NCBI RefSeq assembly: GCF_013394165.1
Contig: NZ_CP041330.1
Span: forward strand, 1,418,501-1,482,500
From: Pseudoalteromonas sp. Scap06
GTDB lineage: Bacteria; Pseudomonadota; Gammaproteobacteria; Enterobacterales; Alteromonadaceae
Direction: 5' to 3'
DNA length: 64,000 nt
Shown: positions 2,975-57,021 of the stretch, in pieces
Layout: each line of letters begins with the position of its first letter
Position numbering within the stretch: position 1 is the stretch's first letter
Notes under the pieces: model-generated
What the model saw: only the letters and a program-made list of their open reading frames with translations
The model's database searches: none
What the model was told of the DNA's origin: nothing
Translations under genes and position numbers: made by a program

Positions 2975-3145
2975 CGTAGGTTGGATAAGCCAGAGGCGTC
3001 ATCCGACAATGTTGGATAATTCGAAGGCGTCATCCGACGATGTTGGATATTAATCAATATCGGTGCAGGTTTTGCTTTATGTTGGGTGATGTTTGGGGTC
3101 GGGGGTCACCAATGTCGGGTGGCGTGGCTTCGCCACTTAACCGAC
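2975..3145. repeat. REP cluster downstream of the RAYT gene
   Basis: Three REP copies: one at about 2975-3007 (almost identical to the 2365-2397 copy), a diverged copy at 3011-3037, and one at 3114-3145 that differs from the 2314-2345 copy by a single base in the hairpin loop. The order of repeat types mirrors that upstream of the RAYT gene. Confidence 0.8.
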
Positions 3146-3164
3146 CTACGTTCTTTTTTTGAAT

Positions 3165-3228
3165 TGGTACGACTGAGTGGATTCGAACCACTGACCTCTG
3201 GACCAGGTGATCAAGAGTAGGTAGTGCT
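3165..3228 (-). repeat. tRNA-Val 3'-end repeat, copy A
   Basis: Transcribed on the minus strand, this unit ends in the exact T-arm, acceptor 3' strand and CCA of the neighbouring tRNA-Val, with one change in the T arm. The anticodon region is replaced by a block reading GATCACCTGGTCCAGAGG, and the 5' acceptor and most of the D arm are missing. It cannot fold as a full tRNA. Confidence 0.75.
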
Positions 3229-3259
3229 TTTTCTTTTTTGATAGTGTAGATATGGAGAT

Positions 3260-3322
3260 TGGTACGACTGAGTGGATTCGAACCACCGACCTTGGAGCGG
3301 GTGATTAAGAGTAGGTAGTGCT
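3260..3322 (-). repeat. tRNA-Val 3'-end repeat, copy B
   Basis: The same design as copy A but the most diverged in the central block (CTTGGAGCGGGTGATTAAGA on the plus strand). The T-arm and acceptor 3' strand with CCA are identical to the intact tRNAs. It lies between intact tRNA copy 1 and repeat A in transcription order. Confidence 0.72.
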
Positions 3323-3345
3323 TTTTCTTGAGATGTTTTTTGAAT

Positions 3346-3422
3346 TGGTACGACTGAGTGGATTCGAACCACCGACCCCTACCATGTCAAGGTAGTGCTC
3401 TAACCAACTGAGCTACAGTCGT
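3346..3422 (-). tRNA. tRNA-Val (GAC), copy 1
   Basis: A complete 77-nt cloverleaf on the minus strand including the encoded CCA (3346-3348). The acceptor stem ACGACTG pairs with CAGTCGT. The D arm contains GCTCAGTTGGTTAGAGC, the anticodon stem CTACC pairs with GGTAG around the loop TTGACAT (anticodon GAC, valine), and the T loop is TTCGAAT. It closely resembles E. coli tRNA-Val(GAC). Confidence 0.96.
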
Positions 3423-3471
3423 ACAATTTTAAATTCTTAAATTAAATATACTTTTAGGGGTGAAGTATATT

Positions 3472-3535
3472 TGGTACGACTGAGTGGATTCGAACCACCG
3501 ACCTCTGGACCAGGTGATCAAGAGTGGGTAGTGCT
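3472..3535 (-). repeat. tRNA-Val 3'-end repeat, copy C
   Basis: One of three tandem units of about 104 bp. Each consists of a truncated tRNA 3' part and a shared spacer that contains CTTCAACGTACTTTAAATAC. Its central block differs from copies D and E by only a few bases. Confidence 0.78.
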
Positions 3536-3575
3536 ATTTCCTTCAACGTACTTTAAATACATTATTTACTAATTT

Positions 3576-3639
3576 TGGTACGACTGAGTGGATTCGAACC
3601 ACCGACCTCTGGATCGGGTGATCAAGAGTAGGTAGTGCT
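3576..3639 (-). repeat. tRNA-Val 3'-end repeat, copy D
   Basis: Second of the three tandem ~104-bp units. The spacer is identical to that of copy C. The tRNA-derived part again keeps the T arm and acceptor 3' strand with CCA but no 5' half. Confidence 0.78.
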
Positions 3640-3679
3640 CTTTCCTTCAACGTACTTTAAATACATTATTTACTAATTT

Positions 3680-3743
3680 TGGTACGACTGAGTGGATTCG
3701 AACCACCGACCTCTGGACCGGGTGATCAAGAGTAGGTAGTGCT
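3680..3743 (-). repeat. tRNA-Val 3'-end repeat, copy E
   Basis: Third tandem unit, immediately downstream (in transcription) of intact tRNA copy 2. The period to copy D is 104 bp and to the tRNA 102 bp; its spacer lacks a few bases of the version in C and D. Confidence 0.78.
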
Positions 3744-3781
3744 ATTTCCTTCAACGTACTTTAAATACATTTTACTAATTT

Positions 3782-3858
3782 TGGTACGACTGAGTGGATT
3801 CGAACCACCGACCCCTACCATGTCAAGGTAGTGCTCTAACCAACTGAGCTACAGTCGT
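3782..3858 (-). tRNA. tRNA-Val (GAC), copy 2
   Basis: A 77-nt tRNA identical in sequence to copy 1, with encoded CCA at 3782-3784 and anticodon GAC. It is the upstream intact tRNA of the minus-strand unit and is followed by repeats E, D and C before tRNA copy 1. Confidence 0.96.
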
Positions 3859-3981
3859 ACTATAAGTCTACATACTATTTAATTCGTCCATGAAGCTTCA
3901 TCCTGTCGGCGTCCTGCCTCCACCTCGTTCGGCTGCGAAGCTTCGCTTCGGTCCAATCTCGCCCAACTGAGCTACAGTCGT
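3859..3981 (-). pseudogene. tRNA-Val 5' half interrupted by a short GC-rich insertion
   Basis: Reading the minus strand from 3981, the sequence begins exactly as the intact tRNA-Val genes (ACGACTGTAGCTCAGTTGG) and then breaks inside the D loop. What follows (about 3885-3960) is GC-rich with a GAAGCGAAGCTTCGC palindrome and a GGCAGGACGCC core. The rest of this tRNA is absent, so it is a remnant of a third tRNA gene. Confidence 0.7.
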
Positions 3982-4025
3982 ATTGCATGTATTTAAGAGT
4001 TGTTAATTGCTTAACAACGGTCGCT

Positions 4026-4054
4026 AATATATAGCGTGATGGGGAGTGAATCAA
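4026..4054 (-). promoter_or_regulatory. Sigma70-type promoter for the tRNA-Val unit
   Basis: On the minus strand a -35 box TTGATT (4049-4054) and a -10 box TATATT (4026-4031) are separated by exactly 17 bp. The -10 is followed by the GC-rich discriminator AGCGACCG, as expected for a stringently controlled stable-RNA promoter. It lies about 45 bp upstream of the first tRNA-like sequence. Confidence 0.65.
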
Positions 4055-4094: not shown

Positions 4095-5144
4095 TCATAT
4101 TGGACTGATTTCACACGTTTTATAAAATTTTTGCCACCATATAACATGCTCTTTTGCTGACGATTTTAGCTGAGCGAGTAAGTTTTTAGCGTTTGGGTCA
4201 AGAAGAGCATTTATCTCTTCACTGCTTACTGCTTGATTAAACCACAGCTGCACATACAGCGGCTGCAATGTTTCTAAATAACCACTAAGCTGCGCTTGAT
4301 AAGGCTGAATTTGTTTTAAATAATATTTATTGAATATATTACTGACAATTTTAGCTTGCTGCTTGTTTTTACCCTTTGGGCATATATCTTCTAGCGTTAA
4401 AGTATTTACAAACTGGGTGGCCGCATGATTTAAGCTAATTTGTTCACGCGCGGCATGAATAAGTTGTTGGTTAAACTCGTATTTGTTAAGCGGCTCAAGC
4501 GCTGACAAAATATCATCACTGTTTATTGCCATACTATTTTGGTTTTCTATTAGCTGTTTTATGGTAGTTAGCTTTTTAAGCCCCTCAACTGTGTCGCTAA
4601 ACCCAGCTGGTTGAGTGCTGAGCTCTTGGCCGGTTAATTGCCAACTGCTGTTGAGCTCGGGTTCACTAAATAACATATTGTTGAAAAACTGAGTGAGCTG
4701 AGCTTGTTTTTGAGTTTTTGCCGCAGCAATTTTGTTGTAAATCTTGCTTTGTTTATCCAAGCTATTTAAACAGTTTTGCGCGCTTTGAATAAAATCTATT
4801 TGGTACTTCAATTGACTAGCGGCGGTGGCCGTTTTACCTAACTGATTATTATGCTCACTTATTAAAACGTTCAGTTTACATTGGCTAATACCAGCAAGTT
4901 CAGTTATACCAATTTTAATTGCGGGCTGAAAGGTATTTTTAGGCGCGACTAACGTGAGTTGTTGCAGTGGATTTCTCTTTGGCTCGGGAACTTGAAAGGT
5001 ACTACTTAAGCGAGACAAATAAGTTTTATTTGCCTCACTGGGCTGCTCTGAGCAGCCAAAAAGAAATACACAACACACTGCCAGTAACCAACTAAGTGGC
5101 AGTGTGTTATTTATAGATTGTTTAAGAGAGAATAAATGGTTCAC
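4095..5144 (-). CDS. DUF3080 family lipoprotein
   Basis: A 349-residue protein with a lipoprotein signal: hydrophobic core LLAVCCVFLFG and lipobox LFGC, with Cys31 as the likely lipidated residue. The rest is largely alpha-helical and matches my recollection of the DUF3080 family found in marine gammaproteobacteria. The gene overlaps the end of the upstream MATE gene by 23 bp, so the two are translationally coupled and probably one operon. Function unknown; an envelope role beside an efflux pump is an inference from context. Confidence 0.75.
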   Translation of the reverse strand: MNHLFSLKQSINNTLPLSWLLAVCCVFLFGCSEQPSEANKTYLSRLSSTFQVPEPKRNPLQQLTLVAPKNTFQPAIKIGITELAGISQCKLNVLISEHNNQLGKTATAASQLKYQIDFIQSAQNCLNSLDKQSKIYNKIAAAKTQKQAQLTQFFNNMLFSEPELNSSWQLTGQELSTQPAGFSDTVEGLKKLTTIKQLIENQNSMAINSDDILSALEPLNKYEFNQQLIHAAREQISLNHAATQFVNTLTLEDICPKGKNKQQAKIVSNIFNKYYLKQIQPYQAQLSGYLETLQPLYVQLWFNQAVSSEEINALLDPNAKNLLAQLKSSAKEHVIWWQKFYKTCEISPI

Positions 5145-55735: not shown

Positions 55736-56638
55736 TTATTGAGTTAGCTTGATTTTTCGGGTCACAATAAAACACATTAATGAGCCTAATGTAACTAAAA
55801 CAACGCCTTGCCAGAATACGCTGGTGAGCGATATTGATAAGTAAATAGAGGCAAATAGTGTTGATAACACAGGAATAAAGTAAGACAAGGTGCCTAACAA
55901 CACTAGGTTACCGCCAATGATCGCTTGGTTCCATAGTGCGTAACCTCCACCAATAACAATACCTGCTAATACTAAGGTCAAGCTAGAATATAGGCTAAAC
56001 TCAAAGCTGGGTTCATTACTCAGTCCGTAACTTATCCATAAAGAGATTGCCGTGGCTGCAAAAAATACACTAATGGCATTTTTACCCTCGCTAAGTTTAA
56101 CCGTTACACTGCAATACACAGCCCAAATAAACGCCGCTGCAAACGCCATGGAGTAGGGTAATGGATTGTCACTAATATTAGCGGTTAATACTCCTACAGA
56201 TAAACCACTATTACCTGCAATGCACCATGCAACGCCTAAAAACGCAATCAGTATGCTCGGGTAGACTAATGCGCTTACTTTAATGCGGTTAACAATAATC
56301 GATAATAAAATGGTTAACGCTGGCCAAAGGTAGTTAATAATCGCCATTTCTAACGTTTGCTGGCGACTATTTGCAAAGCCAAGCGATAAAGCCAAACACA
56401 TTTCGTAAATCACAAATAAGCTGCCACCAAAGACTAAATAGCGCTTTGGATAATTGTTTAGCTTTGGTACACCCATGACAAGCATTAAAAAAATCGCACT
56501 GACGCTATAAATCAAAGCAGCACCGCCAATTGGGCTAAATAACTCCGATAAATCACGAACAAAAGCAGTTAAACTGCTCCAAAGTAAAATAGCGAGCACC
56601 CCATAGAGGGTGTATTTATGTTTAATTAAAAAAGACAT
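55736..56638 (-). CDS. yddG: DMT-family exporter, YddG-like
   Basis: A 300-residue, ten-helix inner-membrane transporter of the EamA/DMT superfamily. It aligns block by block with E. coli YddG, an exporter of aromatic amino acids: LWSSLTAFVRDLSE near the N-terminus, PIGGAALIYSVSA, VIYEMCLALSLGFAN, EMAIINYLWPALTIL, FIWAVYCSVT, GTLSYFIPVLS and FWQGVVLVTLGSLMCF. It is monocistronic. Substrate by homology only. Confidence 0.87.
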   Translation of the reverse strand: MSFLIKHKYTLYGVLAILLWSSLTAFVRDLSELFSPIGGAALIYSVSAIFLMLVMGVPKLNNYPKRYLVFGGSLFVIYEMCLALSLGFANSRQQTLEMAIINYLWPALTILLSIIVNRIKVSALVYPSILIAFLGVAWCIAGNSGLSVGVLTANISDNPLPYSMAFAAAFIWAVYCSVTVKLSEGKNAISVFFAATAISLWISYGLSNEPSFEFSLYSSLTLVLAGIVIGGGYALWNQAIIGGNLVLLGTLSYFIPVLSTLFASIYLSISLTSVFWQGVVLVTLGSLMCFIVTRKIKLTQ

Positions 56639-56739
56639 GGAGAGCTACTTAATGAAAAACAAAAGTAACACTTTAATATATATCAAGGGGTAGGGCATTA
56701 GTTTTACTAACTTTTAGTCTGATAGGTAGTAGCAGCATG

Positions 56740-57021
56740 TAGGGTCTTTTTAATCGTGGCGCGAGGTTTGTAACCTCGTGAGCAGTTGATAACTGCTCAC
56801 GCGTTATTCTACTGGCTTACATCCATGTAAGAATAAGTAAGTCCGAGCAAAGTTTTCGCGTCTTGCTAACGCTCCTTACCTACATTCAGTGGGCAACAAA
56901 GAGTAAATCCACCCTAGGGAAGAGCTCGATGGGCAGCGCCTGTTTGGCATTGATGCAGCGTTATTGCCTAAATGCCAAACAGATTACTACAAATCTAACC
57001 TTAAAAGACCAACAGACCCTA
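56740..57021. repeat. Hairpin-rich ~280-bp element with terminal inverted repeats
   Basis: Terminal 8-bp inverted repeats TAGGGTCT (56740-56747) and AGACCCTA (57014-57021) bound a gene-free segment. Inside are two abutting perfect hairpins, CGAGGTT-TGT-AACCTCG (56762-56778) and GTGAGCAGTT-GAT-AACTGCTCAC (56778-56800), and a third, CTGTTTGGCATT / AATGCCAAACAG (56940-56982, 19-nt loop). It looks like a MITE or other non-autonomous repeat. Confidence 0.65.

Follow-up and report, generated by a model that had tools for sequence, protein, structure and literature searches.

Behind the tRNA-Val(GAC) genes of Pseudoalteromonas sp. Scap06, five repeat units combine a tRNA 3′ end with a C/U-rich block, and sequence comparison makes it likely that this module is a genuine RNA element that has been little studied, as opposed to debris. 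The five units may be TLR-like RNA modules co-transcribed with tRNA-Val(GAC), such that growth-coupled small RNAs would be cut from the tRNA transcript, a reading to which we give a probability of about 0.5. Comparison across genomes shows that the 3′ end of a unit derives from the tRNA immediately before it and mostly stays identical to it, and that conservation of the block extends throughout the family. In the type-1 class alone, a new 5′ strand shows covariation with the 3′ end, with which it would form the closing stem of a hairpin.

Organization of the tRNA-Val(GAC) array

The array lies on the minus strand at 3858-3163 of the window, the whole 64,000-nucleotide stretch of DNA analysed. 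ARAGORN, TRF, a repeat search and alignment of the tails agree with the original prediction that it comprises two intact tRNA-Val(GAC) genes and five tail-bearing units. In transcription order, the first tRNA (3782..3858; ARAGORN; Rfam RF00005, 70.2 bits) is followed by unit E (3678..3781; conserved core 3680-3748, block 3715-3732), unit D (3574..3677; core 3576-3644, block 3611-3628 with one mismatch) and unit C (3470..3573; core 3472-3540, block 3507-3524 with one mismatch), then by the second tRNA (3346..3422; ARAGORN, Rfam), unit B (3258..3343; core 3260-3327, block 3294-3311 with two mismatches) and unit A (3163..3257; core 3165-3233, block 3200-3217 with one mismatch), all on the minus strand. 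The predicted unit length of about 104 bp is exact for E, D and C (104 nt each) and too long for B (86 nt) and A (95 nt); TRF reports an array at 3470-3813 with a period of 104 bp, 3.3 copies and a score of 646.

The tails of the units match the tRNA closely. A repeat search finds the 35-nt tRNA 3′ end in seven copies in the window (two tRNAs and five units), and the last 18 nt of the tRNA are matched without mismatch by all five units. Local alignment of the last 32 nt of the tRNA with the units gives scores of 64, 64, 64, 64 and 59 against 18 for the best of 20 shuffles, which rules out likeness by chance. Each unit is built of a spacer, GCACTACC, the block, and then GGTC, the T arm, the acceptor 3′ strand and CCA. 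The block, CTCTTGATCACCCGGTCCA or near forms of it, replaces the anticodon arm in all units, just as had been proposed from the letters of the window. It had also been proposed that the units keep the tRNA 3′ end and miss the 5′ half; the first part stands (18/18 nt in 5/5 units), and the second needs correction, as the retained GCACTACC corresponds to the D-stem and the 5′ strand of the anticodon stem of tRNA-Val. Within the source genome, with up to three mismatches allowed, the block occurs only at the tRNA-Val(GAC) array, in five places.

The leader of the array holds a 20-nt copy of the tRNA-Val 5′ end (3963..3982, minus strand; repeat search) and, between this fragment and the first tRNA, a G+C-rich element (3887..3964, minus strand) that is single copy in the source genome. 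Fused in this way (3887-3982), they are a 5′ mirror of the 3′ units. The leader element is also found at tRNA-Val(GAC) in G028 and G098, in two copies each, and in close congeners. Upstream of the array, a consensus scan picks out promoter-like hexamers TTGATT-17-TATATT (4026..4054, minus strand), a weak match among eight sites in 2 kb where 5.2 are expected. Further upstream lie a gene for a DUF3080 protein (4095-5144) and, next to it, a MatE transporter. Just beyond the other end of the array is a REP-associated tyrosine transposase (2431-2928; NF047646, 195 bits), beside which stands a 31-bp tandem repeat (2980-3049).

Conservation and structure of the units

The original prediction held that conservation of the block argues against random decay, and the comparison of genomes bears this out, with the block kept across genera while spacers diverge. 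An earlier measure gave a block identity of 0.78 over 16 positions, with 1.00 at CTCT and 0.34 and 0.29 in the spacers (40 loci from 39 genomes, L014 and L086 being from the same genome; L012 and L013 are two assemblies of a single species). That value is biased and partly reached by construction because the units were selected by the block itself, with an exact CTCT required, and the retest therefore used selection by the tRNA tail only. Among the 112 copies so picked from 38 genus loci, intact tRNAs excluded, the 50 nt preceding the tail contain a perfect CTCTNNAYNNCCC in 101 and one with at most two mismatches in 111, and it occurs in 475 of 5600 shuffled copies. Identity at spacer positions -75 to -51 of the same copies is 0.25-0.47 per position. 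The loci of both measures originated from searches with the unit.

A model consisting of GCACYACC plus the block (R2) matches 63 of 108 genus genomes, leaving 45 without a match under strict filters. In the family, it matches 59 of 395 genomes in 20 of 52 genera at E<=0.01, where about four are expected by chance; 21 of the 59 belong to the genus Pseudoalteromonas. The exact 19-mer of the block is present in 13 records of named genomes, ten of them Pseudoalteromonas (carriers include P. prydzensis, P. rhizosphaerae, P. fuliginea, P. haloplanktis and P. distincta) and three others, a number close to the two or so that chance would give. Rapid divergence of the block among close strains had been named beforehand as the sign of neutral debris, and comparison of the locus among Pseudoalteromonas genomes did not find it. 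A single unit in L019 (1298-1380, minus strand) has a 14-nt stretch of the block doubled in tandem. No Rfam family covers the block; HPnc0260 and the other matches to known RNA families fall below their cut-offs and overlap antisense tRNA. The titles and abstract openings of the literature searched do not name the element.

The tail of a unit follows its neighbor. For 31 of 33 type-1 units (13 of 15 where the copies of the genome differ) it is identical to the tail of the closest tRNA copy upstream, and the same holds for 18 of 25 other units (8 of 12 where they differ), in a comparison that takes in 58 of 64 units, the remaining six having no upstream tRNA in the stretch or no standard tail. 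Tail identity with the upstream tRNA is a hallmark of the E. coli TLRs (PMC8144298). In G062 (L036) the D arm is still present in the units, whose departures from tRNA-Val lie mainly in the anticodon arm and the 5′ acceptor strand. The units therefore descend from tRNA-Val copies that acquired about 22 nt in place of the anticodon arm, and the lineage of the window has lost the D arm as well.

Units E, D and C fold better than shuffled sequences (z of -3.3, -2.9 and -2.7), and units A and B fold no better (z of -0.23 and -0.35). In the predicted folds, a new 5′ strand, GTACGTTGAAGGA (E 3747..3759, D 3643-3655, C 3539-3551, minus strand; assigned from folds and covariation), pairs with the borrowed T-stem and acceptor strand. 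The type-1 class in relatives (33 units) has the form GTAY-N-YNAAGGA, in which Y covaries with the tail: T-A pairs in 19 units, C-G in 11, T-G in two and C-A in one, or 12, 8, 1 and 1 when counted by genome (Fisher p = 2.4e-4, uncorrected for kinship). Across 25 aligned units, 86.5% of the cells of the closing stem are paired, against 18-48% when one strand is slid, and none of 500 shuffles reaches the percentage paired or the covariation score, again uncorrected for kinship. These 25 were drawn from the 33 type-1 units by omitting seven rows of the window's clade, with a register shifted by one, and L094, with an indel; window unit C is in neither set. Pairs of the closing stem changed on both sides number two, which 85 of 500 shuffles reach, and the count of further pair types is reached by all. 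In a set of 89 standard-tailed units, pairing of the 5′ stretch is stronger with the unit's own tail than with the other tails in 32 and weaker in 51, and the closing stem is thus a trait of one class. RNAalifold places no pair within the block in sets of 38 and 62 units. Two other candidate structures were rejected: covariation is absent from the alternative hairpin ACUACC/GGUGGU and from the T arm, whose T-stem pair 60-70 is disrupted in 15 of 25 type-1 units.

Units behind other tRNA genes

The block is not confined to one host tRNA. Sixteen family loci were fetched, and ARAGORN finds a tRNA-Val in twelve of them, nine GAC and three TAC; the four loci without one are L168, L181, L169 and L177, the last a contig end that holds TAC-type units. 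Block-bearing units (CTCTTTAYMRCCCGCGCCRA and near forms) stand behind tRNA-Val(TAC) in L178, L179, L182 and L188 and mostly end in the tRNA-Val(TAC) tail AGTATCGTCCACCA (two of three units in L188). The blocks of the GAC and TAC types are identical at 14 of 20 positions, a value reached by 29 of 200000 shuffles. At E<=0.05, a search outside the family returned 27 of 394 genomes where chance would give about 20, with six of the 27 in Pseudoalteromonas' own family. Five loci from outside the family were fetched, and in four of them the 1.3 kb taken contains no tRNA; the fifth, L186, is real and belongs to another family, with four units behind two tRNA-Val(TAC) genes, three bearing a full tail and one decayed (by eye). 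Model R3 finds three of these four.

The source genome was scanned over 29 tRNA regions and the window, placed by 97 tRNA hits, and tRNA-derived units were found at five other tRNA loci. At tRNA-Ser(GCT) there are two RtT-like units of 184 nt each (L105/L166, G000:C1 about 56300-56900), which are the best RtT matches in the genome (24.1 and 23.5 bits; cut-off 45) and whose 5′ GGGAGGGT complements the tRNA-Ser 3′ strand; given this complementarity and the weak RtT scores, RtT-like units seem to be present on another tRNA. Loci L139, L145, L161 and L155 carry units at tRNA-fMet (three), tRNA-Leu(CAA) (one), tRNA-Arg(ACG) (two, one from the scan and the second by eye) and tRNA-Val(TAC) (four, located between tRNA genes and lacking the tRNA 3′ end). 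Inserts resembling CTCT are seen by eye in tRNA loops of the fMet and Arg units. The block and the fMet units of the same genome agree at 12 of 20 positions, which 437 (deep consensus) or 283 (window block) of 200000 shuffles reach; at E<=10 these fMet units are not matched by models R2 (10 regions) or R3 (29 regions).

Known systems, alternative explanations and meaning

The closest known counterparts of the Val units are the TLRs of E. coli, 22 genes at ten loci that were first described in 1978 and that, by the account of a 2021 paper, had no known function before work on three rRNA-linked members (PMC8144298). Like these, the Val units lie downstream of a tRNA on the same strand, in one to several tandem copies, and all five end in 18 nt identical to the upstream tRNA 3′ end; their position and strand also suggest that they share the operon transcript of the tRNA. 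Unlike E. coli TLRs, they have as their body a C/U-rich block replacing the anticodon arm, their borrowed end is longer (32/32 nt in four of five units), and they are found behind Val tRNAs of Pseudoalteromonas' family. With RtT RNA (RF00391, rttR of tyrT), to which the array had originally been likened, the resemblance holds for the anatomy of tandem units and, in E, D and C and not in A and B, for a 5′ strand that pairs with the tRNA-derived 3′ strand. It does not extend to sequence: the RtT covariance model has no match on the Val array at its gathering cut-off or at E<=5, and no shared body sequence was seen. The claim that the tyrT repeat acts in amino acid starvation was later retracted, as stated in PMC8144298. 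As with RrA, RrB and RrF, which are transcribed with their operon in E. coli, the units stand behind stable-RNA genes; the E. coli RNAs differ in lying between two intrinsic terminators and in binding CsrA, whereas a consensus scan of the Val array detects none of the former. The units share descent from tRNA-Val with tRNA pseudogenes, most plainly in G062, and differ from them in a non-tRNA block conserved across genera. Repeated tRNA loci of the same genus are already in print, in a review passage on P. haloplanktis that concerns tRNA genes and leaves such units unmentioned (PMC3820357).

If the units are indeed TLR-like modules, they would be co-transcribed with tRNA-Val(GAC), and their tRNA-like 3′ ends would act as processing signals. 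Maturation of the tRNA precursor would then also free RNAs of about 70-105 nt ending in CCA, and these could use the block to contact a partner, either RNA or protein, as a signal proportional to tRNA synthesis, that is, to growth rate. Release as small RNAs is supported by the precedent of the E. coli rrA/B/F TLRs, which are transcribed with rRNA, yield processed sRNAs and bind Hfq and CsrA; cleavage at the repeat by RNase E has been suggested (PMC8144298).

Several alternatives were weighed. First, the array could terminate the tRNA operon in a Rho-dependent manner and buffer its 3′ end, with the C-rich block loading Rho and the tRNA-like ends allowing clean trimming, which we consider unlikely. 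A consensus scan detects no intrinsic terminator in the Val(GAC) array, whereas the Ser, fMet, Arg and Leu units of the same genome are flanked by hairpin-plus-T terminators (by eye). A C-rich, G-poor stretch at the array end (3199..3276, minus strand; C 0.32, G 0.09), a candidate rut site, falls in the 99.9th percentile of the window's 78-nt stretches. The excess of C over G, in percentiles within the window, is strong across units B and A (98.9th for 3328-3251, 99.9th for 3276-3199), reaches the 97.8th at the end of C and, against this explanation, is missing over E and D. Because the scan detects no intrinsic terminator in the array and its last units have this excess, Rho-dependent termination may apply, and the tyrT repeats of E. 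coli are located in a Rho-dependent terminator. However, block-bearing units in G267 and G570 themselves precede terminators (by eye), and a Rho site is not known to need a kept 20-nt sequence.

Second, the units could be neutral debris, a damaged tRNA copy multiplied by unequal crossing-over, with gene conversion keeping the tails similar. Higher-order tandem duplication is plain in G048 (12 units), the terminal units of arrays are decayed (by eye), and the genus genomes without a match fit this explanation too. What makes it improbable is the block: being absent from the tRNA, it cannot be maintained by gene conversion from the tRNA, yet it is retained across genera and at two tRNA genes while spacers diverge, and the 5′ strand covaries with the tail.

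Finally, it is very improbable that the units are scars or decoys of integrases using tRNA-Val(GAC) as attachment site: in other genera this tRNA does look like an integration site, since G637 (L181) and G626 (L168) carry a phage-integrase-domain frame about 150-200 nt from a tRNA-Val(GAC) 3′ half with units downstream, but the L168 and L181 junctions retain the anticodon loop TTGACATGGTAG, which the units lack, so that the att core (anticodon loop to CCA) is not kept in them, the exact 19-nt block is in no viral contig, the plasmid and phage matches listed (8 of 122 and 8 of 66 records) are essentially to tRNA only, and the block also stands behind Val(TAC). A phage or plasmid origin of the block is likewise unsupported among the viral-contig, plasmid and phage matches listed.

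The reading of the units as TLR-like modules admits a broader form, doubtful but possible, in which the block is a modular RNA element that settles behind different Val tRNA genes and adopts the tail of its host, with maturation excising growth-coupled small RNAs that share a seed. If this were true, the fMet, Arg, Leu, Ser and Val(TAC) units would be sisters in a general, overlooked layer of tRNA operons. By the sequence characters compared here, the Val units are a variety of TLR conserved beyond the genus. In the Val family, a conserved seed-like body recurs in many genera and at two host tRNA genes, one class has a covarying stem, and congeners differ naturally in whether they carry the units, so that comparison, deletion and small-RNA sequencing can put its function directly to the test.
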